From the NCBI GenBank assembly GCA_000143165.1, contig CP002084.1, positions 868,001-932,000 of the forward strand: DNA of 64,000 bases. Reading direction: 5' to 3'. Shown in pieces: positions 42,773 to 59,788 of the stretch. This DNA comes from Dehalogenimonas lykanthroporepellens BL-DC-9. GTDB taxonomy: Bacteria > Chloroflexota > Dehalococcoidia > Dehalococcoidales > Dehalococcoidaceae. Made by a program: the position numbers and the translations under genes. Each line of letters opens with the position of its first letter. The stretch's first letter is position 1. The notes beneath the pieces were generated by a model, which was given only the letters and a program-made list of their open reading frames with translations, searched no databases and was not told the origin of the DNA.

Positions 42773-44944
42773 TCAACCAACCGTCTGCGGTAATTCCACG
42801 GTAAAGACAGCTCCGCCCTCCGGCCTATTGGCGGCGGTGATACAACCACTATTACGGGTGATGATTCCATGGCAGACCGACAGACCCAAACCTGTCCCCT
42901 GTCCGACTTCCCGGGTGGTGAAAAACGGGTCGAATATCCGCGGCAGGTTATCCGGCGGTATTCCAGGCCCATTGTCGGCGAACGTAACCGCCGTCATCCG
43001 GCCTCTGACTTCGGTGGTAACCGTCAGTCGTTTTGCTCCCTCCAGCTTATGCAACTCAGTGACCGCGTTTTTGATGATATTCAGAAAAGCCTGCTGAATC
43101 TGAGAGGCATCCGTGATCACTTGCGGTAATTCCGGGCTCAACTCCAGAATCAGCTCTATACCATGGTGTTCCAGTTCTGCGGCCATCGATTTCAGTGTTT
43201 CACTGACCAGGTTATTGAGGTCGGCCGGTTCCTGTCGTGGCGGGCGCGGGTCGGCGAAGGTAAGCAGGCGTCTGATAATACCGGCTACCCGCTGAGCGCC
43301 GCTGTCGATGATGGCGGCATCGTCCCGGATGTCTTCCGGCAGGTCCGGTCTTTGCGCCAGCAGTTGGGAAAAACCGATGACTCCGGTGAGCGGATTGTTG
43401 ATTTCATGAGCAATACCGGAAGCCATGACACCGATACTGGCCTGGTGGGCCGCCAGGGCCATCCGGGCTTCCATCTTGCGACGCTCTGTCTCGGCCTGCT
43501 TCTGAACGGATATATCCGACAGTACGCCGATAACAGTCACCCGACCATCATCTTCGAAGGCTTCCAGCGACAGTATCACCGGAATCTCCCGGCCGGAGGC
43601 GTCACTGATACGACATTCCCGGGAAGAAATATTCTCCCCGGCCAGCCGTCGGGCCAGGTCCTGGGCTACCGCCGGGCGGCATGCGGGAACGAACAGGTCG
43701 ATAACATCGTCCGCTTTCTCCCCATCCTGATTAAAAGTCAGATGGGTGGCCGCGTCAAAGAAACGCTGATTGGCATAAACGATATCACCTTCCCTGAGGA
43801 CAAAAACCATGGAAGGCAGGAGTTCAGCCAGTGTTCGAAAGAGCTGTTCCGATTGCTGAAGCCGGCGCTCCGCAGTCTGTCTTTCAGTAACATCTCGCAG
43901 AACCTTGATCAGACCGTAAGCGCCGTCGGCTTCCAATAGGGGAGCGGAGGCAATTTCGTAAAATCGGCCGTCTATTTCGGCGACACTCATCGGTACCCGT
44001 GTTCGTCCATTCAATCCGGCCATGGGGCAATCTTCACAGGGTTCGGTTCGGCCATGCACTGAATAACACGCCTCGCCAACCTCGACTCCCAGATGCAGTC
44101 GGGCGGCCCGATTGATAAAACTTATCGTCCGGTCACGCTTGGCGATGATAACCGCATCGACCATACTGTCAAGCCACCTTTCCAGACTGTGGCGTATCGC
44201 CAGACTTTCGCGGTAGAGCCGAGTGTTCTCCAGAGTTACCGCCAGATGGCCGGCCATGACCAGCAGAGCCATCCGGTCATTCTCGGAATACTGCCCTTTG
44301 AACCGCTTACCGACCAGCAACAACGCCGCCAACTGTCCTTGTTTGAGGGCTACCGGAACTATCATGTCCACCCCGGCCTGTGCCAGAGACTCTGCCACCA
44401 GAGAATTAGCCCCATCCGCCGTCACGGCGGCTTTTATTTCATTGACCAGCAGGGTCTTCCGATGGCGTTCGAGCCATGATACCAGCCCGTCTGCCCGGTT
44501 CAACCGGAGGTCAGCACAGGGTTCATCAGGATGACAGACCGACACGATGAACGATTCCCCATCAAGGTCAGGCACCAGAAGATAAACCCTTCGGCAATTC
44601 ATGGCCCCACAGATAAGTGCGGCTACCCGTTGATCAACATGCCGGGGGTCATGAATGCTCTGGGTTCGATTGATAAAATCATCGAGCGCCTGGAAGTAAT
44701 CATATCTTTCGGAATAAAGCAGGCGGTCTATGAAACCAAGGGTCAGATAGAATACCGGCCAGGACGCTCCGGCAAGCACTGCTACAAGCGCAACCAGTAT
44801 CCAGATATTGTCACTGAGAACCACCAGCTGGCCGATCAGCCAGGCCAGTCCCAGGAATGGGATGCCGAGGATCACCCCCGTTATCAGATAGGCCAGCGCG
44901 CGTCGGGGAAAGAGGGAATCCACCAGATGGTACCGAATCGGCAT
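42773..44944 (-). CDS. membrane-bound GAF/PAS sensor histidine kinase without its own regulator
   Basis: About 723 residues from ATG 44944 (GGTGG upstream), or 738 from a TTG at 44989. Two or more membrane helices (about 15-65) precede a GAF domain (about 90-255), two PAS domains (about 260-360 and 370-480), the phosphoacceptor box GIAHEINNPLTGVIGFSQLL (near 515) and an HATPase_c domain (AFLNIIKNAVTEL; FADNGPGIPPDNLPRIFDPF; GTGLGLSVCHGI). The first PAS contains a cysteine pair (CEDCPMAG), so redox or metal sensing is possible. No response regulator lies in its transcription unit. It faces the PhoB-type system tail to tail. Confidence 0.88.
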   Translation of the reverse strand: MPIRYHLVDSLFPRRALAYLITGVILGIPFLGLAWLIGQLVVLSDNIWILVALVAVLAGASWPVFYLTLGFIDRLLYSERYDYFQALDDFINRTQSIHDPRHVDQRVAALICGAMNCRRVYLLVPDLDGESFIVSVCHPDEPCADLRLNRADGLVSWLERHRKTLLVNEIKAAVTADGANSLVAESLAQAGVDMIVPVALKQGQLAALLLVGKRFKGQYSENDRMALLVMAGHLAVTLENTRLYRESLAIRHSLERWLDSMVDAVIIAKRDRTISFINRAARLHLGVEVGEACYSVHGRTEPCEDCPMAGLNGRTRVPMSVAEIDGRFYEIASAPLLEADGAYGLIKVLRDVTERQTAERRLQQSEQLFRTLAELLPSMVFVLREGDIVYANQRFFDAATHLTFNQDGEKADDVIDLFVPACRPAVAQDLARRLAGENISSRECRISDASGREIPVILSLEAFEDDGRVTVIGVLSDISVQKQAETERRKMEARMALAAHQASIGVMASGIAHEINNPLTGVIGFSQLLAQRPDLPEDIRDDAAIIDSGAQRVAGIIRRLLTFADPRPPRQEPADLNNLVSETLKSMAAELEHHGIELILELSPELPQVITDASQIQQAFLNIIKNAVTELHKLEGAKRLTVTTEVRGRMTAVTFADNGPGIPPDNLPRIFDPFFTTREVGQGTGLGLSVCHGIITRNSGCITAANRPEGGAVFTVELPQTVG

Positions 44945-45045
44945 CTCCACCACCCTTCCAGCACGCACAACGGGGTGCTTCCCGCTCAAGCCGGTTACTC
45001 TTTTTTATGCGGCTTGCGCTCTTGAATATTTCGTTTTGTTATCTC

Positions 45046-46071: not shown

Positions 46072-47265
46072 CTATGCTCCGACCTCCAGCCTTGTCAGGG
46101 CAGATTCCAGCTTATCGACGGCCTCTTCCACTTCGGATTCGGTGATGTTCAGGGCCGGCATCAACCGCAGAGCATCCGGTTTGACATTGTTGACCAGCAG
46201 TCCCTCGGCCAGGCAACGCCGGGCCAGTAATTGAGCGAAATCACCGCCGAGTTGAACCGCGGTTAAAAGCCCCTTACCCCGGACGCCGGTTACCTGCCGG
46301 GGCCGTCGGACGGCCAGGTCTTTCAGTCTTTCCCGGAGCAGACGGCCCATGTTGTGAGCATGGCCGGAAATATCATTGTCTATGATGTACTTGACCGTGG
46401 CGTAGGCTGCGGCGCAGGTCACCGGATTACCGCCGAAGGTAGAGCCGTGCTCACCGGCGGTAAACACGGAAAACTTTTCCTTAGCCATGATGGCGCCTAT
46501 CGGCATACCACCCCCGAGTCCTTTGGCCAGCGTCATGATATCGGGTTCGACCTGATAATCCTGATAGGCGAAGAGAGTGCCGGTGCGACCGATACCGGTC
46601 TGAATTTCATCCAGAATGAGAATCAGCCCCTTTTCGTCGCACCATTTCCTGACGTCTTTCAGATAACCCGGCGCAGGCACGTTGACCCCGCCCTCACCCT
46701 GAACCGGCTCCAGCATTACGGCGCATACGGTCTCGGTCGTCGCCTGCCGGATGGCTTCGATGCTGTCGAATTCAACATTGATAAAACCCGAAGGCAGAGG
46801 TGTGTAAGGTTGCTGGTATTTCAACTGACCGGAAGCCGAAACCATGGCCAGCGTCCGTCCGTGAAACGAGCCGGTAGCGGTAATCACCTCATAGGCGCCG
46901 TTCAGATGCAACTTCCCGTAACGCCGGGCCAGCTTGACGGCGCCTTCGGAAGCCTCGGCGCCTGAATTGGCCAGAAAAACCCGGTCGAGACAGGAGTTTT
47001 CCACCAGCAGTGCCGCCAGTTGCAACTGAGGGATGGTGTAATAGTGGTTGGATGTCTGTATCAGTTCACCGACCTGTTGTCTGACCGCCTCGACCACGGC
47101 CGGATGACAGTGTCCCAGGGCGTTAACCGCCCAGCCGGCGACGAAATCCAGATAACGCCGGCCGTGTTCGTCCCAGACTTCACTGCCGGCGCCTTTGACA
47201 ATGGTCAGTGGCGCCCGTTCCACGGTGCGCATGAAATATTTCTGTTCCAGTTCTTCCCAGTTCAT
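46072..47265 (-). CDS. argD: acetylornithine aminotransferase
   Basis: 397 residues from ATG 47265, preceded by AGGAGA. PLP-enzyme motifs are FLANSGAEASEGAVKLAR (near 98-115), SFHGRTLAMV (near 133), ILDEIQTGIGRTG (near 215-227) and the lysine box MTLAKGLGGGMPIGA (Lys near 245). GEHGSTFGGNPVTCAAA follows. It transfers the amino group to N-acetylglutamate semialdehyde in arginine synthesis. It follows argB by 17 nt. Confidence 0.93.
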   Translation of the reverse strand: MNWEELEQKYFMRTVERAPLTIVKGAGSEVWDEHGRRYLDFVAGWAVNALGHCHPAVVEAVRQQVGELIQTSNHYYTIPQLQLAALLVENSCLDRVFLANSGAEASEGAVKLARRYGKLHLNGAYEVITATGSFHGRTLAMVSASGQLKYQQPYTPLPSGFINVEFDSIEAIRQATTETVCAVMLEPVQGEGGVNVPAPGYLKDVRKWCDEKGLILILDEIQTGIGRTGTLFAYQDYQVEPDIMTLAKGLGGGMPIGAIMAKEKFSVFTAGEHGSTFGGNPVTCAAAYATVKYIIDNDISGHAHNMGRLLRERLKDLAVRRPRQVTGVRGKGLLTAVQLGGDFAQLLARRCLAEGLLVNNVKPDALRLMPALNITESEVEEAVDKLESALTRLEVGA

Positions 47266-47282
47266 GCTGATATTCTCCTGCC

Positions 47283-48056
47283 TCAGGCGATAATGGCAGT
47301 GCCGCAACCGCCCTCAACTACTTCTTTGTAAAGCATGTGAGCCTGACTGCCATCAACGATACTGGTCACGGTGCCGGCGGCGCTGGCCCGCCGGGCGGCG
47401 CGTATTTTCGGCACCATACCGCCGGTAGCGATACCGCCGGTCACCAGTTCTTCCGCCTCCCGGGCGGTTACAGCCTCTATCAACTCTCCTTCGCCGTCCC
47501 GGATACCCGGAACATCGGTAAGAAACACCAGCTTATCCGCCTGAAGCGCCGCCGCCAGCTCCCCGGCCACCGGGTCACCGTTGATATTGAGTAATCGATT
47601 CTCGGGATCACCGCCGTTAAGTGATACCGGTGACACCACAGGGACAAATTCGTTTTCGAGTAACAGGTGGAGCAGAGTCGGGTCCACCCTTTCGGCATCA
47701 CCCATATAACCCCATTCGACGCCTCTGGGTCTCCCGGTAATCAAACCGCCGTCAACACCGGAAATCCCCACCGCCCGGACGCCCAGGGCGAGAAGATGAG
47801 CAGTGGTTTCCTTGTTGACCAGGCCTCCCAGAACAGCGGCGACCACATCCAGGTTTTCCCTGTCGGTTACCCTCTCACCATTATGAATGCGGGTTGCCAG
47901 TCCCAGGCGTTTCAACCAATCGTTAACCGTTGCCGCGCCCCCGTGAACTACTACCGGACGATAGCCAGCCTTTTTCAGGGCGACCACATCCTCCAGAGAG
48001 GTATCACGACTGCCCAGGACTGAGCCCCCCAGCTTGATGACTATGGTTTTATTCAT
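47283..48056 (-). CDS. argB: acetylglutamate kinase
   Basis: 257 residues. The amino-acid kinase fold is shown by IKLGGSVLG at the N-terminus, VVVHGGAATVNDWLKRLG (near 35-52), VGISGVDGGLITG (near 95), NINGDPVAGELAAAL (near 157) and FLTDVPGIRDGEG (near 178). It phosphorylates N-acetylglutamate. A GGAG precedes the ATG. It is the middle gene of argJ-argB-argD. Confidence 0.92.
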   Translation of the reverse strand: MNKTIVIKLGGSVLGSRDTSLEDVVALKKAGYRPVVVHGGAATVNDWLKRLGLATRIHNGERVTDRENLDVVAAVLGGLVNKETTAHLLALGVRAVGISGVDGGLITGRPRGVEWGYMGDAERVDPTLLHLLLENEFVPVVSPVSLNGGDPENRLLNINGDPVAGELAAALQADKLVFLTDVPGIRDGEGELIEAVTAREAEELVTGGIATGGMVPKIRAARRASAAGTVTSIVDGSQAHMLYKEVVEGGCGTAIIA

Positions 48057-48083
48057 TCGGTAACTCCATTGATGCGCCGATTG

Positions 48084-49289
48084 TCAGGTAGTGTAGTCGG
48101 CGTTGATATGGACATAGGTGTCGCTGAGATCGCAACCCCAACCGGTCAAAGTACAGGGTCCCGACCCCAGGTTCAATCTTACCGGTATTTCCGGACGGCT
48201 CATTACCGTCCCGGCCACGGCTTCATCGAAAGGCACCGGTTGCCCCCTGTCGAATACTACGATGCCGCCGACATCCAGGCTGACACAGGATAAATCCAGC
48301 GGTACTCCGGAACGCCCGGCGGCGGCTACGATACGACCCCAGTTAGGGTCGCCGCCGTGAATAGCGGTCTTGACCAGCAGTGACGACAGCACCGTTCGAA
48401 CAACCTTCCGGGCGTCTCTTTCCGAATCGGTCCCGGTAACGGTCAGCTCAATCAGACGGGTGGCTCCCTCGCCGTCGCGAGCTATTGCCTTGGCCAGAAA
48501 AACGCAGACCGTGGCCAGAGCTTCCTCGAAAAGACTCAGCGCCCCGGGTTCAGTATCCAGAACGACACCGGAAGAACCGTTGGCCATGATGAAAACGCTG
48601 TCGTTGGTCGAGGTATCCCCATCAACGGATACCAGGTTGAAAGACCGGTCGACACAGCGCCGGAGTATCTTTTTCAACAGATTGGCATTGACACCGGCAT
48701 CGGTAGTGATAAAAGCCAGCATGGTCGCCATATCCGGGTGAATCATGCCCGAACCCTTTGCGCACCCACCAACGGTAAAACCAAGCTCTGGCACCGTGAC
48801 GGCAATCTCCTTAGCCACCGAATCAGTGGTCATAATGGCGCGGGCGAAATCATGTCCGCCTGCCTGCGACAGGGTTATCCGCTCCAGCCCGGCTGACACC
48901 CGACCCATCGGCAATGTCACGCCGATAACACCGGTGCTGGCAACCATCACCTCGGACTTATCAAAACCCAGCAGCCCACCGGCCATACCGGTCATGGTGT
49001 CGGCATCCTGACGACCGATTTCTCCGGTACCGGCATTAGCGCACCCTGAATTCACTACTATCGCCCGGCCCCGGCCGTTTCTCAACCTTCGTTGTGACAG
49101 AATCACAGGCGCCGCCCGGAAACGGTTCCGGGTAAAAACCCCGGCGGCCACAGCCGGCTGTTCCGACACCAGCAGAGCCAGGTCCAGCGCGTTGGGAGAA
49201 TTTTTGATACCGGCAGATACCGCTCCCGCAGTAAAACCTGCTGGAGAGGTGACAGAACCACCGGAAATAATAGAAATGCCGTTTCTCAT
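48084..49289 (-). CDS. argJ: bifunctional glutamate N-acetyltransferase/ornithine acetyltransferase
   Basis: 401 residues from ATG 49289, where homology begins (GGSVTSPAGFTAGAVSAGIK near 9-28). The cleavage and nucleophile site is SGMIHPDMATMLAF (Thr near 190), where self-processing makes alpha and beta chains; VNSGCANAGTG (near 86) and GGDPNWGRIVAAAG (near 310) are also conserved. ArgJ recycles the acetyl group from acetylornithine to glutamate. A TTGCCA-17-TATATT promoter lies upstream; longer in-frame starts (49460, 49379) would overlap it and are unlikely. Confidence 0.93.
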   Translation of the reverse strand: MRNGISIISGGSVTSPAGFTAGAVSAGIKNSPNALDLALLVSEQPAVAAGVFTRNRFRAAPVILSQRRLRNGRGRAIVVNSGCANAGTGEIGRQDADTMTGMAGGLLGFDKSEVMVASTGVIGVTLPMGRVSAGLERITLSQAGGHDFARAIMTTDSVAKEIAVTVPELGFTVGGCAKGSGMIHPDMATMLAFITTDAGVNANLLKKILRRCVDRSFNLVSVDGDTSTNDSVFIMANGSSGVVLDTEPGALSLFEEALATVCVFLAKAIARDGEGATRLIELTVTGTDSERDARKVVRTVLSSLLVKTAIHGGDPNWGRIVAAAGRSGVPLDLSCVSLDVGGIVVFDRGQPVPFDEAVAGTVMSRPEIPVRLNLGSGPCTLTGWGCDLSDTYVHINADYTT

Positions 49290-49312
49290 AATCAATAAAG
49301 TGGTGACGCTAG

Positions 49313-49341
49313 AATATATCACAGCCGCCGAAACGTGGCAA
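49313..49341 (-). promoter_or_regulatory. promoter of the argJ operon
   Basis: Minus-strand TTGCCA (49341-49336), 17-bp spacer, TATATT (49318-49313); 23 nt to the ATG at 49289. Confidence 0.65.
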
Positions 49342-49424
49342 AAGCCGAATAAGCGCCGGGTAAATTCATCAATCACCATCGAGTTACGGCACAGTTTTGC
49401 CGTTTCCTTAATGACATTTGATGT

Positions 49425-49442
49425 TTGACTAAGGTTAATCAA
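49425..49442. promoter_or_regulatory. near-perfect inverted repeat in the arg/hydrogenase intergenic region
   Basis: TTGACTAA-GG-TTAATCAA: 7 of 8 positions of the arms match. A candidate operator between the divergent argJ and hydrogenase promoters. Confidence 0.35.
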
Positions 49443-49460
49443 ATAATTTCTACGGTGCAT

Positions 49461-49538: not shown

Positions 49539-49623
49539 CATTGAACTTTTGTAACCGAATAGGGAAAAGCCTCCCGGCCTGCTCCTGCATATAGGCCATT
49601 TTATTTTGTTCAAGGGGGATTCG

Positions 49624-51942
49624 ATGCCGGAAAACTCTGTTCTTATTGTCGACGCCGACCCGGGCGCCCGAGAAACCGCGGTATGGTTGAAAGGGTCCGG
49701 TTTCCGCGTTGCCAGCGCCGCCACGGGTGAAGAAGCTCTGAATCTTATCGATAACCAGGATTTCAGTGTCATGTTGCTGGATCTGCGTCTGCCCGGCAAA
49801 CACGGACTGGGCGTTCTTCGAGAAGCCCGGGTGAAGAGGCCCTGGATGCAGACCATCGTCACCACCGACCATCCTTCGGTAGAATCGGCCACCGAAGCCC
49901 TTCGTCAAGGGGCCGTTGATTACCTGGTCAAGCCGGTCTCACCCCAGGATATGGCGACGCTGTTGAAAGACACCATCAAATCCGCCGCCCGTCAGCGACC
50001 GGCCGCCATCCAGATCAAGGCCAAAGCGGCGCCGACCAAACTGGTACCCCAGGCGTCTTTCGTCATCAGCCGCGACAGCCTGAAACGCATGGTCGATACC
50101 CTGGCCGGCGAACGGGAAGCCATTGGAGTTGTGGCACGCCAGGGGAAATATGTGTATGACCGGGTCGAGGGCTTCGAAGACGTGACCCTGGATTACGATG
50201 TTACCGTCAATCCGCCGACGGCTTTTCTGATACCGACCTGCGAAACCATTCTGAAGTACCGGATGGGCCATTCACCCGAAATCACCCCGATTACCGATAC
50301 CACTCCACGGGTGCTGATAGGTGTTCATCCCGACGATATCAACGCCATCAATCTGCTCGATGAAGTCTTCATGACCAACAATCCCGACCCCAATTACACC
50401 GCCCGCCGTGAGAACACCCTGATCATCGGTGTCGATGTCATCACGCCTCAACCGGCGTCTTTCGCGCCCAGTATGGGCGCCCACACCGCGGAAACGGGCT
50501 ACGACCTGTTGCTGACCGATATCGGCAATGCCGGTTACATGGTCACCGTCGGCTCAGAGACCGGAGCCGAGACACTGGCCCGGCTGGCCCAGGTCAGGGA
50601 ACCGACCCCCGCCGAAACTGCCCGGCAGAAACAACTCCGCGACGAAGCGCTGTCCAAATATCGTCTGTTCCTGGATATGCCCCGCGACAAGATTCCCAAT
50701 CTGCTGGAAACCAACTATGATAATCCTTACTGGCTGGCCCGAAGTGAGGCCTGTCTCAACTGCGGCTCCTGCATCATGGTCTGCCCGACCTGTTTCTGTT
50801 TCGATGTTCAGGACGATGTGTCTTTGAACATGGTTGATGGCGAGCGCATCAGAAAACCCGACGGCTGTATGCTGGTGGATTTTTCACGGGTAGCCGCCGG
50901 GGCCAATTTCCGGGGCGACAAACTCAGCCGTTTCCGCCACCGAATGTATCACAAGGGCAAATATATTCTCGACCGTTACGGCAAATACGGCTGTGTCGGT
51001 TGCGGCCGTTGCTCCATCACCTGTCTGGCTGAGATTGCCAGCCCGCTCGAAGCCTACAATGCCATCGCCGCCAGTGAGAAAACCCGGGACAAAGCCAGGC
51101 GCACCGTGACCAACACCAGGCCGCAACCGGAACTTTACCTGCCGCATCTGGCCACCATAGAGAAGGTTACCCCCCTGTCACCGCGGGAGAAACTCTTCGA
51201 ATTCAGGCTCAACGACGGCAACAAACTAGGCCATCGGCCAGGACAGTTCGTTGAAGTCTACGTTTTCGGCATCGGTGAGTCACCCATTTCCCTGACCTCA
51301 TCGCCGACCCGAGATCATACCTTCGAAGTCGCCGTCAGAAACGTCGGCAATGTGACCGGGGCTCTTCACCGCCTGGAGCCCGGCGCGACGGTAGGCATCC
51401 GCGGCCCGTTCGGCAACGGCTTCCCCCTGGAAGAGATGGAAGGCAAGGACATCCTCTTCATTGCCGGCGGTATCGGTATCTTCCCCCTGCGTTCACTCAT
51501 CCAGTATGTGCTGGACCGAAGGGACGCCTACGGTCATATTAATCTACTGTTCGGCGCCAGGTCGCCGGCGGAAAGGGTTTTCGCCGACGATATGCAGGAG
51601 TGGAGTCAGGCGCCCGACGTTACTTTCCTGGAAACGGTTGACCGGAGCGATGACAGCTGGACCGGCAACGTCGGCGTCATCACCACGCTGATTCCCAAAG
51701 TACAATTCGACCCCAGGAACACGGTCGCCATCGTGGTCGGGCCGCCGATTATGTACCGGTTCGTCATCAACGAACTGAAGAAAAGAGACCTGGCCGACGA
51801 TAACATCATCGTTTCGCTGGAACGCAAGATGAAGTGCGGCGTCGGTAAATGCGGCAACTGCCAGATCAACAATGTCTATGTCTGTCAGGAAGGACCGGTC
51901 TTTCCGATGACCAGACTGCGCACATTAAGGGAGGCCATCTGA
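49624..51942 (+). CDS. response-regulator receiver fused to [NiFe] hydrogenase beta and gamma electron-transfer subunits
   Basis: 772 residues in three parts. (1) Residues 5-120 are a full receiver domain: acidic pair Asp10 and Asp12, phosphoacceptor Asp53 (MLLDLRLPG), Thr80/81 and Lys103-Pro104. (2) Residues 145-490 match HydB (beta) of sulfhydrogenases, with 4Fe-4S motifs at Cys377, 380, 383, 387 (CLNCGSCIMVC) and Cys457, 460, 463, 467 (CVGCGRCSITC). (3) Residues 510-772 match HydG (gamma): FAD/NAD domains (RPGQFVEVYV; IAGGIGIFPLRSL) and a C-terminal [2Fe-2S] site (Cys738, 743, 746, 754). It should move electrons between the hydrogenase core and NAD(P). The ATG follows AAGGGGG. The frame is open throughout, so this is a real fusion. 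Confidence 0.9.
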   Translation: MPENSVLIVDADPGARETAVWLKGSGFRVASAATGEEALNLIDNQDFSVMLLDLRLPGKHGLGVLREARVKRPWMQTIVTTDHPSVESATEALRQGAVDYLVKPVSPQDMATLLKDTIKSAARQRPAAIQIKAKAAPTKLVPQASFVISRDSLKRMVDTLAGEREAIGVVARQGKYVYDRVEGFEDVTLDYDVTVNPPTAFLIPTCETILKYRMGHSPEITPITDTTPRVLIGVHPDDINAINLLDEVFMTNNPDPNYTARRENTLIIGVDVITPQPASFAPSMGAHTAETGYDLLLTDIGNAGYMVTVGSETGAETLARLAQVREPTPAETARQKQLRDEALSKYRLFLDMPRDKIPNLLETNYDNPYWLARSEACLNCGSCIMVCPTCFCFDVQDDVSLNMVDGERIRKPDGCMLVDFSRVAAGANFRGDKLSRFRHRMYHKGKYILDRYGKYGCVGCGRCSITCLAEIASPLEAYNAIAASEKTRDKARRTVTNTRPQPELYLPHLATIEKVTPLSPREKLFEFRLNDGNKLGHRPGQFVEVYVFGIGESPISLTSSPTRDHTFEVAVRNVGNVTGALHRLEPGATVGIRGPFGNGFPLEEMEGKDILFIAGGIGIFPLRSLIQYVLDRRDAYGHINLLFGARSPAERVFADDMQEWSQAPDVTFLETVDRSDDSWTGNVGVITTLIPKVQFDPRNTVAIVVGPPIMYRFVINELKKRDLADDNIIVSLERKMKCGVGKCGNCQINNVYVCQEGPVFPMTRLRTLREAI

Positions 51943-52691
51943 TGAAACCCAGAGTAGCCTTTTTCGATTTTACCGGTTGCGAGGGGTGCCAGCTGGACGC
52001 TCTGAATCTGGAACCGGATGAACTGCTGGGACTTCTCGGCGCGGTCGATATCGTCAACTTTCGCGAAGTCCGCACCGACCGTTCCGACGAATACGATATC
52101 GCCTTTATCGAAGGCAGTATCACTCGCGAATCGGAAATTGCCCGGCTGAAAGAAATCCGGGAGCGTGCCGCGGTTCTGGTAGCCCTGGGCGCCTGTGCCT
52201 GCACCGGCGGTATCAACTGTATGAAAAACGCCTACGAGACCGAGGAACTGCTCAAAGGCGTCTACGGTGATTGCGCCGCTTATTACGATACCATTCCGAC
52301 GCGTCCGGCCGACGCGGTCGTCAAGGTAGATGCCTATATCAGGGGCTGTCCGCCGACCACCACCGAATTCGTCAAGGTAGTCAAGTCCCTGTTGCTGGGC
52401 AAAAAAGCCGACCTGCCGAATTACCCGGTATGCACCGAATGCCGCCGGGCCGGCAATATCTGCGTCTTCCAGCGAGGCGGCACCTGTATCGGCCCGGTCA
52501 CCCGGGCCGGTTGTGACGCATTGTGCGTCAGCGCCGGTCGTTTCTGCTGGGGATGTCGCGGCCTGGTCGATGACCCCAACCTGGATTCCGAGAAGGACAT
52601 CCTGGCCCGTTACGGTCTGACCATAGACCAGATACTGGAACATTTCCGAATATACAACTCCTGCACGGAGGCTACTCAATGTCAGAAATAA
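51942..52691 (+). CDS. hydD: group 3b type [NiFe] hydrogenase small (delta) subunit
   Basis: 249 residues from ATG 51942, which overlaps the upstream stop (TGATG). The proximal-cluster cysteines begin in DFTGCEGCQ (Cys13, Cys16) with GACACTGGINCMKN (near 86) and RGCPPTT (near 139). The C-terminal cysteines CTECRRAGNIC and CFWGC-type segments (RFCWGCRG near 210) hold further clusters. It relays electrons from the Ni-Fe centre to the fused beta-gamma protein. There is no signal peptide, so it is cytoplasmic. The gene overlaps hydA by 13 nt. Confidence 0.92.
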   Translation: MKPRVAFFDFTGCEGCQLDALNLEPDELLGLLGAVDIVNFREVRTDRSDEYDIAFIEGSITRESEIARLKEIRERAAVLVALGACACTGGINCMKNAYETEELLKGVYGDCAAYYDTIPTRPADAVVKVDAYIRGCPPTTTEFVKVVKSLLLGKKADLPNYPVCTECRRAGNICVFQRGGTCIGPVTRAGCDALCVSAGRFCWGCRGLVDDPNLDSEKDILARYGLTIDQILEHFRIYNSCTEATQCQK

Positions 52692-53950
52692 AGATCAAGG
52701 TCAATCAGTTAACCCGGGTCGAAGGACATGGCAACATCCACCTGGAGGCCACCGACGGCAAACTGGACCGGGTGCTGTGGGAAGTAACCGAGTCCCCCCG
52801 ATTCTTTGAATGGATGTTGAAGAACCGCCATTACGACGATGTTTCCACCATCTCTTCCCGTATCTGCGGCATCTGCTCCATCGCTCATACCACCGCCTCA
52901 CTGCAGGCGACCGAAGCCGCCTTCAACATCAAACTGTCGGAACAATCATGGCTGTTACGCAAGCTGTTGTACGACGCCGAACTGCTGGAAAGCCACGTTC
53001 TCCACGTTCTGTTTCTGGTCGCGCCCGATTTCCTGAAAGCCGATTCGGTCATCCCGCTGGTGGCCACTCACGGTGACGTGGTGGTCATGGCCGTAAGAAT
53101 GAAGAAACTGGCCTACAACCTGGCCGAAATCCTGGCCGGACGCAAGACCCATCCCATCACGCCGGTAGTCGGCGGGTGGGCGAAACTGCCCGACATCGAA
53201 GCCCTGAAAGCCATCCGGGAAAGACTGGACAAAGCGGTCGATGATGCCGAAACCATGGTGGCCGTAGTCAAATCGCTGGCGCCAGGCATCCCGGCCTTCG
53301 ATCGTCCCACCGAATATATCGCCCTCAAGGATAACCGGGAATACGCCTTTATCACCGGAAAAATTGCTTCCACCGACGGCGGTACGGTCAACCTGAACGA
53401 TTACGCCAAGGTCACCAACGAGTTCTGCGTTCCCCAGTCCTCTTCCAAATATGCCCGGCACAAGCGCGATTCCTATATGGTCGGCGCACTGTCCCGTTTC
53501 AACCTCAATGCCGACCAGCTTCTGCCGAAAGCCAAGAAAGCGGCCCGGGAACTGGGGCTGAAAGCCCCGGTCACCAATCCATTCATGATATCGGTGGCCC
53601 AGACCGTGGAAACAATGCACGCCCTGGAAGACGCCATCAATATCATCGACAAACTGCTGGCCAGGGGCATCCATGAGGAAGAGGTCAAGGTCAAGCCCCG
53701 CGCCGGGCGCGGCGTCGGCATCGTCGAAGCGCCCCGCGGCATGCTCATTCATGATTACACCTATGACGACAGCGGCCACATTGTCTCCGCCAACTGCATC
53801 ATACCCACCGGCCAGAATCACCTGTCCATCCAGAAGGATTTCGACACTCTGGCTCCGACCATACTGGATAAACCGGAAGAAGAAATCCGGCACACGCTGG
53901 AGATGCTGGTCAGATCATACGACCCCTGTATCTCCTGTTCGGTTCACTGA
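52679..53950 (+). CDS. hydA: group 3b type [NiFe] hydrogenase large (alpha) subunit
   Basis: 423 residues. The N-terminal nickel-ligand motif is SRICGICSIAH (Cys63, Cys66, His70) and the C-terminal one is DPCISCSVH (Cys417, Cys420, His423). The protein ends on that histidine, with no peptide after it for a maturation endopeptidase to remove, unlike most family members. It carries the catalytic centre that takes up or evolves H2, and group 3b enzymes couple to NADP(H) and can reduce sulfur. A strong terminator follows. No hyp maturation genes are in the window. Confidence 0.92.
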   Translation: MSEIKIKVNQLTRVEGHGNIHLEATDGKLDRVLWEVTESPRFFEWMLKNRHYDDVSTISSRICGICSIAHTTASLQATEAAFNIKLSEQSWLLRKLLYDAELLESHVLHVLFLVAPDFLKADSVIPLVATHGDVVVMAVRMKKLAYNLAEILAGRKTHPITPVVGGWAKLPDIEALKAIRERLDKAVDDAETMVAVVKSLAPGIPAFDRPTEYIALKDNREYAFITGKIASTDGGTVNLNDYAKVTNEFCVPQSSSKYARHKRDSYMVGALSRFNLNADQLLPKAKKAARELGLKAPVTNPFMISVAQTVETMHALEDAINIIDKLLARGIHEEEVKVKPRAGRGVGIVEAPRGMLIHDYTYDDSGHIVSANCIIPTGQNHLSIQKDFDTLAPTILDKPEEEIRHTLEMLVRSYDPCISCSVH

Positions 53951-54424: not shown

Positions 54425-57127
54425 ATGCATAATAATTGGCACGCGCTTTCCGGAACCGAGGTTCTTCAGCGGCTCGAGGCGGTTATTTCGGGGCTCACTG
54501 ACCAGCAGGCCGAAGAGCGCTTGGCCCGCGGCGGCCCGAACGAAATGACGGCTAAACCCCGAAAACCGGTAATAGTCGTCTTTCTGCAACAGTTTCTGAA
54601 TCCCCTGATATATGTACTGATGGCCGCGGCGGCGGTTTCGGCCGCCACCGGTCATTTCATCGACGCTCTGGTCATCCTGACGATACTACTCATAAACGCC
54701 ACTATTGGCTACGTCCAGGAAACCCGCGCCGAAAAAGCCATGGACGCATTGAAACAAATGGCCGCGCCACAGAGTCAGGTGCGACGAAGCGGCCGAATCG
54801 TAAAAATCCCCTCGCGCGACATCGTACCGGGCGATATCATTATTGTCGAAGCCGGTGACCGCATTCCGGCAGACGCCCGTATCCTGGAACTGGCCGGGTT
54901 GAAAGTCAACGAGTCAGCATTGACCGGGGAATCCCAGCCGGTCGATAAACATAAGGAACCCTCTCCCGATGATACCTCGCTGGCCGACCGGCGTAACATG
55001 CTCTATCTGGGAACAGCAATTACCCAGGGCAGGGCGGTAGCGGTCGTCGTCGGCACCGGCATGGATACCGAACTTGGCCGCATCGCCCATGGGCTCGAAT
55101 CAATTGCCATAGGAAAAACGCCGCTTCAGAAAAGCATCGGCCGACTGAGCAAAGCACTGGCAGTTGTCATGCTGGTGGTAGTGGCGGTCATTTTTCTGGT
55201 TGGTCTCTGGCGCGAACTGGACATCCTGGAAATGTTCTTTTTGTCGGTAGCCGCCGCCGTATCCGCCATCCCTGAAGGCTTGCCAGCCGTGGTCACGGTA
55301 GTGCTGGCCATCGGCATGCGCGCCATGGCCCAGCGAAACGCCATCATCCGCCATCTGGTGGCGGTAGAAACCCTGGGTTCGGCCACCGTCATCTGCTCCG
55401 ACAAGACCGGCACTCTGACCATGAACCAGATGACCGTCCGCAATCTGTATCATGACGGCGGTATTTTGGAAATCACCGGGGAGGGGTACTGTCCTAACGG
55501 AGAATTCTTGACCGATTCCCGGATACCGGCACAACCCGACAGTGATGAGAATCTGCGTTTCGTCCTGGCTATCGGAATGCTGGCTTCCGATTCCTCCGTT
55601 ACCATCGGCGAAAACGAGTGCACCCTGTTCGGCGACCCCACAGAGGGCGCTCTGCTGGTAGCCGGGGCCAAAGCCGGATTGAACAAGGAGGAACTGGAAA
55701 AGGCTTTCCCCCGACTGGACGAAATACCGTTTACCAGCGAACGCCAATATATGGCCACCCTGCATACTGATTCTACCGGGCGTATCATTCATGTCAAAGG
55801 GGCCGCTGAGAAGTTAATAGGGCTAAGCTCCCACATCCGTAAGGACGGTCGGGCTGTTCCCATCACCGACACCGACCGCCGTGAGTGGCAGTCTCAAATA
55901 GACCGAATGGCCGGACAGGCCCTGAGAGTTCTGGCACTGGCCTACCGGGAGATGCCTCATGAAGCCAAAACCATCAGCCCGGAGGATATTGAAGGCCATC
56001 TGGTGCTGACCGGCTTGGCCGGCATCATTGACCCGCCACGGCCTGAAGCGGCCTTGGCAGTCCGCCAGGCTACTGAGGCCGGTATAAAGGTCATCATGAT
56101 TACCGGCGACCACGCCACTACCGCCCGGGCTATTGCCGATGAGATAGGGTTACCCCCGGGGAAGGCGATAACCGGCCGGGAACTGGCGGAGATGTCCGAC
56201 GAACAGTTGCACCGCCGGGTGGATGAGATTTCAGTCTTTGCCAGAATTGAACCTCTCCACAAACTGCGCATCGTTCAGGCACTCAGGAGCCGGGGACATA
56301 CGGTTGCCATGACCGGCGACGGCGTCAACGATGCCCCGGCACTCAAGGCGGCGGATATCGGCGTGGCCATGGGCAGAAACGGCACCGATGTTGCCCGGGA
56401 AGCGTCAGATATGGTGCTGGCCGATGACAATTTCGCTTCGGTTATAGCCGCTGTGGACGAAGGCCGAGCCATCTTCAACCGCCTGCGCAATGTCATTTAC
56501 TACCTGTTGTCATCCAACATCGGTGAACTCATCGCTCTCACCGCCGCCATCGCCATCGTCGGGCAGGCTCCCCTTTTGGCGGTACAGATTCTGTGGATAA
56601 ACGTTCTGACCGATACCACCATCACCATACCACTGGGTTTGGAACCCAAAAGCGGCAACGAATTGAAAACTCCTCCCCGGTCGCCCAAAGTGGGCTTGCT
56701 CTATCCCGGATTGATCATGCGGGTGGCTTATACAGCGCTGATAATGGCCACCGGGGTTTTTCTGGTGTTCGTCTGGGCCCGTCAGCACATGGATATCGAC
56801 CAGGCTCGCACCCTGGCTTTCAGCACTATGATCGCCTTCGAATGGTTCAAGGGGTTCATTGCCCGATCCGATGAAAAAAGCGTTTTCAGCATCGGCCTGT
56901 TCAAAAACCGGTGGCTGATTATGGCCGTCGGTGGCGCCATCATCCTGCAACTGGCGGTTGTCTATACGCCGTTCCTTCAGGCCGCCTTCCATACCTCCCC
57001 GTTCGAGACGGTTTATTGGCTCATCCCCATTGGCGCCGGGTTGACCCTGTTCTTGATCGAGGAAATCCGGAAAACGCTGTTCCCCAAGGCTTTCTCGCTG
57101 GGCAAATGGCAACAGGGAGTCCGGTAA
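54425..57127 (+). CDS. P-type cation-transporting ATPase, type II (calcium-like)
   Basis: 900 residues. An N-terminal cation-ATPase domain (WHALSGTEVLQRL) is followed by the actuator motif ALTGESQPV (near 165), the helix-4 motif IPEGLPAVVTVVLAIG (near 280), the phosphorylation site ICSDKTGTLTMNQMT (Asp near 324), and the hinge TGDGVNDAPALKAADIGVAMG (near 630). About ten membrane helices are seen. PEGLP is typical of calcium/manganese pumps rather than heavy-metal pumps; Na+ or H+ type cannot be ruled out. It is likely an exporter coupled to ATP hydrolysis. Single gene, apparently leaderless. Confidence 0.9.
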   Translation: MHNNWHALSGTEVLQRLEAVISGLTDQQAEERLARGGPNEMTAKPRKPVIVVFLQQFLNPLIYVLMAAAAVSAATGHFIDALVILTILLINATIGYVQETRAEKAMDALKQMAAPQSQVRRSGRIVKIPSRDIVPGDIIIVEAGDRIPADARILELAGLKVNESALTGESQPVDKHKEPSPDDTSLADRRNMLYLGTAITQGRAVAVVVGTGMDTELGRIAHGLESIAIGKTPLQKSIGRLSKALAVVMLVVVAVIFLVGLWRELDILEMFFLSVAAAVSAIPEGLPAVVTVVLAIGMRAMAQRNAIIRHLVAVETLGSATVICSDKTGTLTMNQMTVRNLYHDGGILEITGEGYCPNGEFLTDSRIPAQPDSDENLRFVLAIGMLASDSSVTIGENECTLFGDPTEGALLVAGAKAGLNKEELEKAFPRLDEIPFTSERQYMATLHTDSTGRIIHVKGAAEKLIGLSSHIRKDGRAVPITDTDRREWQSQIDRMAGQALRVLALAYREMPHEAKTISPEDIEGHLVLTGLAGIIDPPRPEAALAVRQATEAGIKVIMITGDHATTARAIADEIGLPPGKAITGRELAEMSDEQLHRRVDEISVFARIEPLHKLRIVQALRSRGHTVAMTGDGVNDAPALKAADIGVAMGRNGTDVAREASDMVLADDNFASVIAAVDEGRAIFNRLRNVIYYLLSSNIGELIALTAAIAIVGQAPLLAVQILWINVLTDTTITIPLGLEPKSGNELKTPPRSPKVGLLYPGLIMRVAYTALIMATGVFLVFVWARQHMDIDQARTLAFSTMIAFEWFKGFIARSDEKSVFSIGLFKNRWLIMAVGGAIILQLAVVYTPFLQAAFHTSPFETVYWLIPIGAGLTLFLIEEIRKTLFPKAFSLGKWQQGVR

Positions 57128-57207: not shown

Positions 57208-58413
57208 ATGACAGAAAAAGTAGTTCTGGCCTATTCCGGCGGTATCGATACTTCGGCGGCCATTCCCTGGCTCAAGGAGCATTATGACATGGATGTCATC
57301 GCCCTGACCGTCGATGTCGGCAATGAACGTGACTTCACCGTTATCCGTGATAAAGCCCTCAAGGCCGGCGCCGTCAAGGCGCTGGTGATGGACGCCAAGC
57401 GGGAGTTCGTTGATGAATACCTCTTCCCGGCGCTGGCCGCCGGCGCGTTGTATGAAAACGAATACCCACTGGCTACCGCTCTGGGACGTCCGCTCATCGC
57501 CAAGCTGATGGTCGATGTCGCCCGGGAAGAAGGCGCCACCGCCATCGCCCACGGTTGTACCGGCAAGGGCAATGACCAGGTGAGGCTGGACGTGGCCACC
57601 GCCGCGCTGGCACCCCATCTGAAGGTCATTGCGCCGGCGCGGGAATGGGGTCTGACCCGCCAGCAGACGATAGAATACGCTCGGAAATTCAACATCCCGT
57701 TGCCGGTAACCGCTAAAAGCCCTTACTCCATAGATGAAAACCTCTGGGGGCGCTCCTGTGAATGTGGTATTCTGGAAGACCCCTGGCTGGAACCACCGAC
57801 CGATGCTTTCGGCTGGACGAAGGAGATAGCCGATACGCCGACCAAACCGGCTTATGTCACCATCGGCTTCAAACGAGGTGTACCGGTTACCCTGAACAAC
57901 CGGCGTTTGGACGGTGTCAGCCTCATCACCAGGCTCAATGAACTGGCCGGCGCCCACGGCATCGGCCGCATCGACCATATTGAAAACCGGCTGGTGGGTA
58001 TCAAGTCCCACGAAATCTACGAAGCCCCGGCGGCAGTAGTACTGCTCAAGGCCCACGCGGCGCTGGAGACCCTGACGCTGACCCGCGACCAACAGCGTTT
58101 CAAATCTGCTGTCACCCGCGAATACTCCGACCTGGTGTACAACGGCCTGTGGTTCTCAGCGCATAAAGCCAACCTTGACGCCTACGTCAAGAGCACCCAG
58201 CAGTATGTCACCGGCACCGTCAGGCTGAAGCTGGAACGGGGCTGTCTGCGCGTCGTCGGCCGCAAATCACCCTATTCCCTGTACGCGCACGACCTGGCCA
58301 CTTACGAAACCGGCGATCAGTTCGACGCCTCAGCCGCCGTCGGCTTCATCAAGCTCTGGGGTCTGCCGGTACGAACCCAGGCCAAAGCGCAATTCCTCAA
58401 AAAGGATAAATAA
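57208..58413 (+). CDS. argG: argininosuccinate synthase
   Basis: 401 residues. The ATP-binding P loop LAYSGGIDTSAAIPWLKE (near 7-24), GCTGKGNDQVRL (near 115) and the C-terminal SPYSLYAHDLATYE (near 354) identify ArgG. It joins citrulline and aspartate. GAAAGG precedes the ATG. It is immediately followed by argH (1-nt gap). The two are about 8 kb from argJBD on the other strand. Ornithine carbamoyltransferase (argF) was not found in the window. Confidence 0.95.
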   Translation: MTEKVVLAYSGGIDTSAAIPWLKEHYDMDVIALTVDVGNERDFTVIRDKALKAGAVKALVMDAKREFVDEYLFPALAAGALYENEYPLATALGRPLIAKLMVDVAREEGATAIAHGCTGKGNDQVRLDVATAALAPHLKVIAPAREWGLTRQQTIEYARKFNIPLPVTAKSPYSIDENLWGRSCECGILEDPWLEPPTDAFGWTKEIADTPTKPAYVTIGFKRGVPVTLNNRRLDGVSLITRLNELAGAHGIGRIDHIENRLVGIKSHEIYEAPAAVVLLKAHAALETLTLTRDQQRFKSAVTREYSDLVYNGLWFSAHKANLDAYVKSTQQYVTGTVRLKLERGCLRVVGRKSPYSLYAHDLATYETGDQFDASAAVGFIKLWGLPVRTQAKAQFLKKDK

Positions 58414-58414
58414 C

Positions 58415-59788
58415 ATGAGTCATGTCCGGAGCCGCTTTGACAAATCCGCCGATGACCTGGTGATCGACTATTCATCGTCCTTGCCTTTCGACCGCCGCCT
58501 CTACCGGGAAGACATCCGGGGTTCCATCGCCCACACCCGGATGCTCTCCGACCGCGGCATCATCCCCTCAGCCGACGCCGAAGCCATCATCCGGGGACTG
58601 GAAGAAATCGAGCGGGAAATAAACAACGGTTCGTTTGAGTTCAAGCCGGTAATGGAAGATATCCACATGGCGGTCGAAGCCCGGCTGAAGGAAAAGATTG
58701 GCGAGCCGGCCGGGCGACTGCACACCGCACGTTCCCGCAACGACCAGGTAGCTACCGACCTGCGGCTTTACCTGAAAGACACAATGGAAGAAACCCTGTC
58801 AGAGATAAGTCAATTACAGCGGGCTCTGCTATCGCAGGCCGAGGACAACCCGGAAGTTATCCTGCCGGGATATACCCACCTGCAACCGGCCCAGCCGGTA
58901 CTGCTGGCTCACCACCTGCTGGCCTATTTCGAAATGCTGGACCGGGACAAATCCCGGCTGGCTGACTGCTACCGGCGAACCGACGTCCTGCCGCTGGGCA
59001 GTGGCGCCCTGGCGGGCACCGCCTATGATACCGACCGGGAGGCCGTCGCCCGGGAACTGGGATTCAAAGAAATCTCCCGAAACAGCCTGGATGCTGTTTC
59101 GGATCGTGATTTCATCATTGAATTCCTGGCCGCCGCCGCTATCATCATGACGCACCTGTCGCGTCTGGCCGAAGAACTCATCATCTGGAGCGGGGCCGAA
59201 TTCGGTTTCGTCGAAATGGATGACGCTTATGCCACCGGATCATCCATCATGCCGCAGAAAAAAAACCCCGACGTGGCGGAACTGGGCCGCGGCAAGACCG
59301 GGCGCGTATACGGCCACCTGACAGCCATGCTGACCACCATGAAGGGACTGCCACTGGCCTATAACCGAGATTTACAGGAAGACAAGGAAGGCCTGTTCGA
59401 CACCGTTGATACTCTGTTGCCATCACTCCGCGTTTTTGCCGGTATGGTGAGCACCATGAGATTCCGCCCGGAACAAATGTTGAAGAGCGTCGATAAGAGC
59501 TTCATCCTGGCTACCGACCTGGCTGACTATCTGGTGGCCAGGGGTGAAACCTTCCGCAACGCCCACGGCGCTGTCGGGCGGCTGGTGAACTACTGTATCG
59601 GTCAGGGCAAGATGTTCCCCGACCTGACTCTGGAGGAATACCGGCAATTTTCGCCACTTTTCGGAAATGATGTCATGGAAGTAACCGTGATGACTTCGGT
59701 CGATGCCCGGAACAACCCCGGAGGTACGGCTCGGTGCCGGGTCAGCCAGGCGCTGAAGGAAGCGCAAGCCCGGCTTGCAGATAGCTGA
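58415..59788 (+). CDS. argH: argininosuccinate lyase
   Basis: 457 residues. The fumarase/aspartase-family signature GSSIMPQKKNPDVAEL (near 281-296) carries the catalytic serine; HTARSRNDQVATDLRLYL (near 102-119) and GYTHLQPAQPVLLAHHLLAY (near 149-168) are also conserved. It splits argininosuccinate into arginine and fumarate. It directly follows argG and is followed by a strong hairpin. Confidence 0.95.
   Translation: MSHVRSRFDKSADDLVIDYSSSLPFDRRLYREDIRGSIAHTRMLSDRGIIPSADAEAIIRGLEEIEREINNGSFEFKPVMEDIHMAVEARLKEKIGEPAGRLHTARSRNDQVATDLRLYLKDTMEETLSEISQLQRALLSQAEDNPEVILPGYTHLQPAQPVLLAHHLLAYFEMLDRDKSRLADCYRRTDVLPLGSGALAGTAYDTDREAVARELGFKEISRNSLDAVSDRDFIIEFLAAAAIIMTHLSRLAEELIIWSGAEFGFVEMDDAYATGSSIMPQKKNPDVAELGRGKTGRVYGHLTAMLTTMKGLPLAYNRDLQEDKEGLFDTVDTLLPSLRVFAGMVSTMRFRPEQMLKSVDKSFILATDLADYLVARGETFRNAHGAVGRLVNYCIGQGKMFPDLTLEEYRQFSPLFGNDVMEVTVMTSVDARNNPGGTARCRVSQALKEAQARLADS

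Follow-up and report, generated by a model that had tools for sequence, protein, structure and literature searches.

The usual output of a two-component receiver is transcription or a second messenger. A locus of Dehalogenimonas lykanthroporepellens BL-DC-9 (the reference genome), lying in the 64,000-nucleotide stretch of DNA analysed here and called the window, raises the question of what such a domain may do when it forms the N-terminal part of a hydrogenase subunit, and whether its chemistry is still that of a phosphorylated switch. If the receiver does act on the electron-transfer arm of the enzyme, hydrogen metabolism would come under direct post-translational control in organisms that depend on hydrogen, among them the organohalide-respiring Dehalogenimonas. 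The features of the locus, in window coordinates, are as follows.

49624-51942, + strand: hydBG with an N-terminal receiver; ATG at 49624, alternative in-frame TTG at 49606
49624-49983, + strand: receiver domain, residues 1-120 (Pfam PF00072, alignment with CheY, (beta-alpha)5 fold predicted by the model), with DD1 Asp10, DD2 Ala11 (non-canonical), Asp53, Thr81 and Lys103
49984-50073, + strand: linker, residues 121-150, the fastest-evolving part; pLDDT under 50 at residues 124-137
50074-51093, + strand: HydB-like part, residues 151-490, with two CxxCxxCxxxC motifs for two [4Fe-4S] clusters (cysteines 377/380/383/387 and 457/460/463/467)
51124-51939, + strand: HydG-like part, residues 501-772, containing an FAD domain, an NAD(P) domain and the cysteines of a [2Fe-2S] motif (Cys738, 743, 746 and 754)
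51942-52691, + strand: hydD, encoding the small (delta) [NiFe] subunit; start codon ATG and hydBG stop overlap as TGATG
52679-53950, + strand: hydA, [NiFe] large (alpha) subunit, overlapping hydD; metal motifs RICGIC and DPCISCSVH
42773-44989, - strand: orphan GAF/PAS histidine kinase, 5 kb upstream of the operon

The fused subunit and its hydrogenase

The receiver and the fused HydB and HydG parts are encoded by a single open frame of 772 residues that runs without interruption. All Pfam domains of the protein score above the Pfam cut-offs: Response_reg at residues 6-114 (E 1.5e-21; 77 bits against a cut-off of 30), the 4Fe-4S dicluster domain Fer4_22 at 377-471 (E 7.6e-30), FAD_binding_6 at 511-598, NAD_binding_1 at 612-714 and a DHODB-type [2Fe-2S] domain at 733-765. 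Together with the cysteine motifs they make the set of beta/gamma sites complete, with the [4Fe-4S] clusters, FAD, NAD(P) and the [2Fe-2S] cluster. The AlphaFold2 model (mean pLDDT 86.7) folds the receiver as (beta-alpha)5 and presents it as flexibly tethered to the redox arm; its pTM (0.52) is too low to place the receiver relative to the rest of the enzyme.

The HydB part matches chain 9nez_B of the Pyrococcus furiosus sulfhydrogenase 1 (E 8e-43) and the HydG part chain 9nez_C (E 1e-62), in both cases with the cluster cysteines included, and HydD and HydA match the delta and alpha chains of the same enzyme. For HydA, in which both CxxC nickel motifs are present, sulfhydrogenase alpha chains are the best matches (E 1e-62). 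These results confirm the coordinates, the uninterrupted frame and the domain order of the first-pass annotation, as well as its recognition of HydB-like and HydG-like sulfhydrogenase parts followed by delta and alpha subunits; its placing of the receiver on the beta-gamma, electron-transfer arm of an NAD(P)-type hydrogenase is supported. The NCBIfam equivalog models for HydA/B/D/G and ShyA-D score 140-276, below their cut-offs of 460-880, so that the enzyme is related to those of Pyrococcus without being their equivalog. The enzyme is predicted to be a soluble [NiFe] hydrogenase of group 3b type, linked to NAD(P) and with a predicted H2:NAD(P) activity, and the fusion to be its electron-transfer subunit.

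The 2026 comparative genomics of Dehalogenimonas reports, in the passages covered, Hup, Vhu and F420-reducing-type hydrogenases in all genomes, and those passages do not mention a receiver on a hydrogenase (PMC13390414). The F420-reducing hydrogenase homolog listed there is probably the receiver-hydrogenase operon, to judge from FrhA/FrhG-type similarity, although the subunits match HydBGDA better than Frh.

Several observations concern the operon and its surroundings. A [NiFe] large subunit without a C-terminal extension needs no maturation endoprotease. HydA stops directly at the last metal-site histidine (DPCISCSVH and stop; window 53918-53950), without such an extension, in all eight Dehalogenimonas species, and the HydA of genome G075 likewise ends at the last histidine (CSTH); other relatives carry a C-terminal extension of about 6-7 residues. 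Arginine genes, identified by eye, flank the operon, with argJ, argB and argD upstream (46072-49460) and argG and argH downstream (57208-59788); in several species they all lie on one side of it, and the neighbourhood has therefore been rearranged. A P-type cation ATPase (54425-57127, by eye) stands between hydA and argG, a position conserved in G004 and not seen in the other six species.

Distribution and origin of the fusion

The fusion is present in all eight Dehalogenimonas genomes (81-100% identity; 81-87% for the seven besides the reference) and absent from all three Dehalococcoides genomes examined. It was also found in 11 further genomes of the class Dehalococcoidia, at full length in ten and cut by a contig end in one. 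Eight of these belong to the same order (families f11, f16, f26 and f34) and carry the full fusion at 56-59% identity; in the rest of the class, G437 and G282 (f81) have it at 61-62%, and G194 (f78) at 54% up to the contig end. Outside the class, among 400 genomes sampled over the phylum Chloroflexota, no match with an E value of 1e-90 or better covers the receiver; the strong matches are HydBG or HydG proteins without it, and the three long open frames examined there are all receiver-less. A receiver-less HydB-HydG fusion also occurs in other Chloroflexota. A contig scan that required exact short peptides gave one unfused relative only. The possibility, raised with the first-pass annotation, that the architecture is an invention of Dehalogenimonas is refuted by this distribution, since the order has it in four more families and the rest of the class in two, and it is in these relatives that versions with intact residues occur.

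The same comparison bears on whether sequencing or assembly might have joined two genes. A hidden frameshift or stop, which the first-pass annotation had named as the error to look for, is excluded because the fusion is intact in the seven further Dehalogenimonas genomes. The identical junction recurs in 18 other genomes, and receiver and HydB evolve at an equal rate, so that the probability of an artefact is practically nil.

The history of the fusion was followed in a tree of HydB, HydG, HydD and HydA (41 rows, 1278 columns). All fused rows fall in one clade of 21 with 100% SH-aLRT support, which includes the receiver-less G046 and G047, and two changes are needed: the receiver was gained once and lost once. 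In the nearest rows outside this clade, hydB and hydG are separate genes and the receiver is absent. Within it, G046 and G047 have a fused HydBG from which the receiver is missing (loci L070:7638-9569 and L071:4604-6370); these look like natural deletions, and their N-terminal stubs, MENNSVLTADK and MENNPVCVADK, resemble the receiver start of a fused neighbour, MKGNSVLIVDD. The likeness is short, and it is only suggestive that the stub may be a trace left by deletion of the receiver body.

Free receivers stand close to the fusion in some genomes. G049 and G075 have a free receiver gene directly upstream, and G282 has a short, internally deleted copy of it beside a maturation-protease-like gene; the region upstream of the G282 fusion (L088:8913-10600, - strand) also encodes a frameshifted receiver protein with a Cys motif. 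In G062 the fusion is preceded by another maturation-protease-like gene and by an apparent selenophosphate synthase gene (L066:4152-5131, - strand; the latter named by eye). In the receiver tree, a single clade (98/95) unites the fused receivers with the free ones of G049 and G075 and with that of a receiver-TPR protein; none of the 29 other receivers of the reference genome falls into it. A PAS kinase and an HTH-receiver that form a conserved pair at another place in the genome (L030/L106) were considered as a remnant of the donor system; this is not claimed, the receiver of the pair being only loosely placed in the tree.

Within Dehalogenimonas the receiver has a pN/pS of 0.13, equal to that of HydB (0.13) and close to that of HydG (0.11), with 0.35 for the linker. 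The receiver is under the same purifying selection as HydB and is therefore not a decaying passenger.

Catalytic residues and neighbouring kinases

An alignment with CheY places the VDADP motif so that Asp10 is DD1, Ala11 is DD2 and Asp12 lies one residue beyond. The first-pass annotation had all phosphorylation residues in place, which holds for Asp10, Asp53, Thr81 and Lys103; Asp12 had been mistaken for DD2. Of the eight Dehalogenimonas species, two have Ala and six have Ser at DD2. The residue at T+1 is Asp in all, and DD1, Asp53, Thr81 and Lys103 are kept in every one, as is a Tyr at K-3; the set of five (DD1, DD2, D, T and K) is thus incomplete. DD2 is a direct Mg2+ ligand and is acidic in 100% of true receivers, and a small residue at T+1 is the rule (Bourret et al., PMC12632262). 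By its residues, the Dehalogenimonas domain is a pseudo-receiver under the definition of Bourret et al. 2025 (PMC12632262). Simple control by phosphorylation is doubtful in Dehalogenimonas, because the Mg2+ ligand at DD2 is lost and T+1 is Asp, and the direct phosphorylation control that the first-pass annotation proposed there is unsupported.

It could nevertheless be argued that Dehalogenimonas retains a normal phospho-switch in which Asp12 or another acid replaces DD2: the other four residues are kept in all eight species, and phosphorylation need not be lost altogether when DD, T or K is substituted (PMC12632262). Such a replacement is quite unlikely, given that an acidic DD2 is invariant in true receivers and is found in 28 of the 29 other receivers of the reference genome (25 with the full set of five), and that an Asp at T+1 is itself unusual.

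All five residues are intact in six relatives (G048, G049, G062, G075, G194 and G437). Family f34 has a Glu-Ser pair, with G135 additionally lacking the Thr, and the G282 receiver has Arg for Lys; judging from the losses in Dehalogenimonas, f34 and G282, degeneration probably took place on more than one occasion. The retention of the domain after loss of catalytic residues in three places, together with strong purifying selection, would also suit a purely structural part, that is, a dimerisation or targeting domain without signalling that was kept after a chance fusion. We hold this to be unlikely; it leaves unexplained the six relatives with complete receivers, several of them with a kinase next door.

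The kinases concerned form a family, defined by a kinase core at least 50% identical to that of the L068 kinase. G135 and G137 have a member in the same operon as the fusion, and in G075 the gene immediately upstream of the fusion encodes a kinase that shares 65% identity with the G135/G137 type over the core. G049 and G048 carry theirs on the other strand, about 120 bp downstream of hydA and 5.5 kb downstream, respectively (50-52% identical). A contig of G062 has the end of hydA followed, about 120 bp downstream, by a kinase (64% identical) and overlaps the fusion contig at only 89%, so that the link of this junction to the fusion is probable. Adjacency to the receiver gene is therefore seen in G135, G137, G075, G049 and probably G062. 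The family occurs in 7 of the 8 fusion genomes of the order outside Dehalogenimonas against 26 of 148 genomes overall (Fisher p 1.7e-5) and, by families, in 4/4 fusion families against 10/36 (p 0.004); these p values are optimistic, as genomes share ancestry, and the stronger argument is that adjacency recurs in several families. The one fusion genome without such a kinase is G136, whose contig starts inside an NtrC gene. No Dehalogenimonas kinase carries an [FeFe]-like domain; the kinases there are at most 44% identical to the core, and none consistently adjoins the operon in the eight species. The orphan GAF/PAS kinase of the window was considered as a partner; it is a weak candidate, near the operon in only three of the eight species.

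The G135 and G137 kinases combine ferredoxin, Fe_hyd_lg_C ([FeFe]-hydrogenase-like) and HisKA/HATPase parts. In both genomes the receiver-hydrogenase operon follows a kinase cassette, with a TPR-only protein between them and, in G137, a remnant of the NtrC-like frame. The full cassette, recurring in Dehalococcoidales, comprises a sigma-54-like factor, a kinase with ferredoxin and [FeFe]-hydrogenase-like domains, an NtrC-like activator and a receiver-TPR protein; it was located in uncultured Dehalococcoidales at L194, L196, L197, L198, L200 and L201 (e.g. L194:6797-12793), and in G139 and G140 (L194 and L201) it adjoins a Vhu-like hydrogenase operon. The signature motifs of the [FeFe]-like domain are altered (SSNCP, GPCVAKK and FCHGC), for which reason hydrogen sensing by it is only a guess, redox sensing being as likely.

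The signal might also run the other way, with the receiver docking on the kinase and reporting the redox or assembly state of the hydrogenase, as a feedback inhibitor or phosphate sink. FixT of Caulobacter, a single-domain receiver that inhibits FixL and uses a 4-Cys motif to bind an Fe-S cluster, is a precedent for feedback from receiver to kinase (PMC7078487), and the flexible tether on the redox arm, the redox-type Fe-S and H-cluster-like domains of the kinases and the non-catalytic pocket of Dehalogenimonas and f34, which suits docking without turnover, would agree with it. The fused receiver, however, has no Cys in residues 1-140, which rules out an Fe-S-binding receiver of the FixT kind, and the want of a kinase conserved beside the operon in Dehalogenimonas also counts against this direction, which we regard as improbable.

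Proposed mechanism and comparison with known systems

The kinases adjoining the fusion and the free sister receivers upstream of it in two genomes suggest an ancestral kinase-to-hydrogenase phospho-switch. A free receiver gene would have joined hydB and hydG once, in an ancestor within Dehalococcoidia, the donor being a two-component system with [FeFe]-hydrogenase-like sensors among its kinases. The covalently attached receiver would serve, on its flexible tether, as a regulatory or docking module of the electron-transfer subunit; in the ancestor and in relatives with intact residues, a kinase would most likely phosphorylate it, and phosphorylation would directly, with no transcriptional step, adjust hydrogen:NAD(P) turnover or assembly. 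The Dehalogenimonas receiver, still selected after the loss of DD2, would most likely be weakly phosphorylated or a phosphorylation-independent interaction module; it probably stands outside the standard chemistry and acts by binding. We give this account as a whole, from single fusion through ancestral phospho-switch to alteration in Dehalogenimonas, about an even chance. The more specific proposal, in which a kinase with hydrogenase-like or redox input phosphorylates the electron-transfer subunit of the intact relatives and so gates hydrogen:NAD(P) flow, with Dehalogenimonas as a phosphorylation-independent descendant, is put forward tentatively, as possible rather than probable. Against a phospho-switch stand family f34, which has an in-operon kinase and yet a degenerate receiver, the Lys-to-Arg change of G282, the loss of the receiver in the G046/G047 lineage, and the fact that most relatives never had one.

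A search of the open literature, with most subscription papers and all preprints outside its scope, found no described receiver-hydrogenase fusion, in agreement with the first-pass annotation, which knew of no hydrogenase of such design. Each part belongs to a known family, and the combination is new as far as the open literature shows. With intact receivers next to a kinase, separately degenerated sets and one lineage from which the receiver was deleted, the family offers a natural comparison for how pseudo-receivers work.

Among solved structures, the soluble hydrogenase I or sulfhydrogenase 1 of P. furiosus (HydBGDA, group 3b; PDB 9nez and 9nf0) is the best or nearly the best match for all four subunits. 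It shares with the Dehalogenimonas enzyme the gene order and the Fe-S, FAD and NAD(P) motifs, and the modelled HydB and HydG parts align with its 9nf0/9nez chains at target TM-scores of 0.85-0.90; the Dehalogenimonas enzyme differs in having HydB and HydG in one chain with an N-terminal receiver, at 28-40% identity. Like the pseudo-receivers and atypical response regulators (PMC12632262), the Dehalogenimonas receiver lacks one of the five residues, DD2, but its output is a redox enzyme and its closest relatives are complete receivers. With FixT (PMC7078487) it shares a tie to redox control, whereas FixT is a single domain that itself binds the Fe-S cluster. The nearest receivers are the receiver-TPR and free receivers of the Dehalococcoidales cassette with its [FeFe]-like kinase and sigma-54 activator; compared with NtrC-type receivers and with the receiver-TPR protein of that cassette, the output of the fused receiver is not DNA binding or TPR but a metabolic enzyme subunit.
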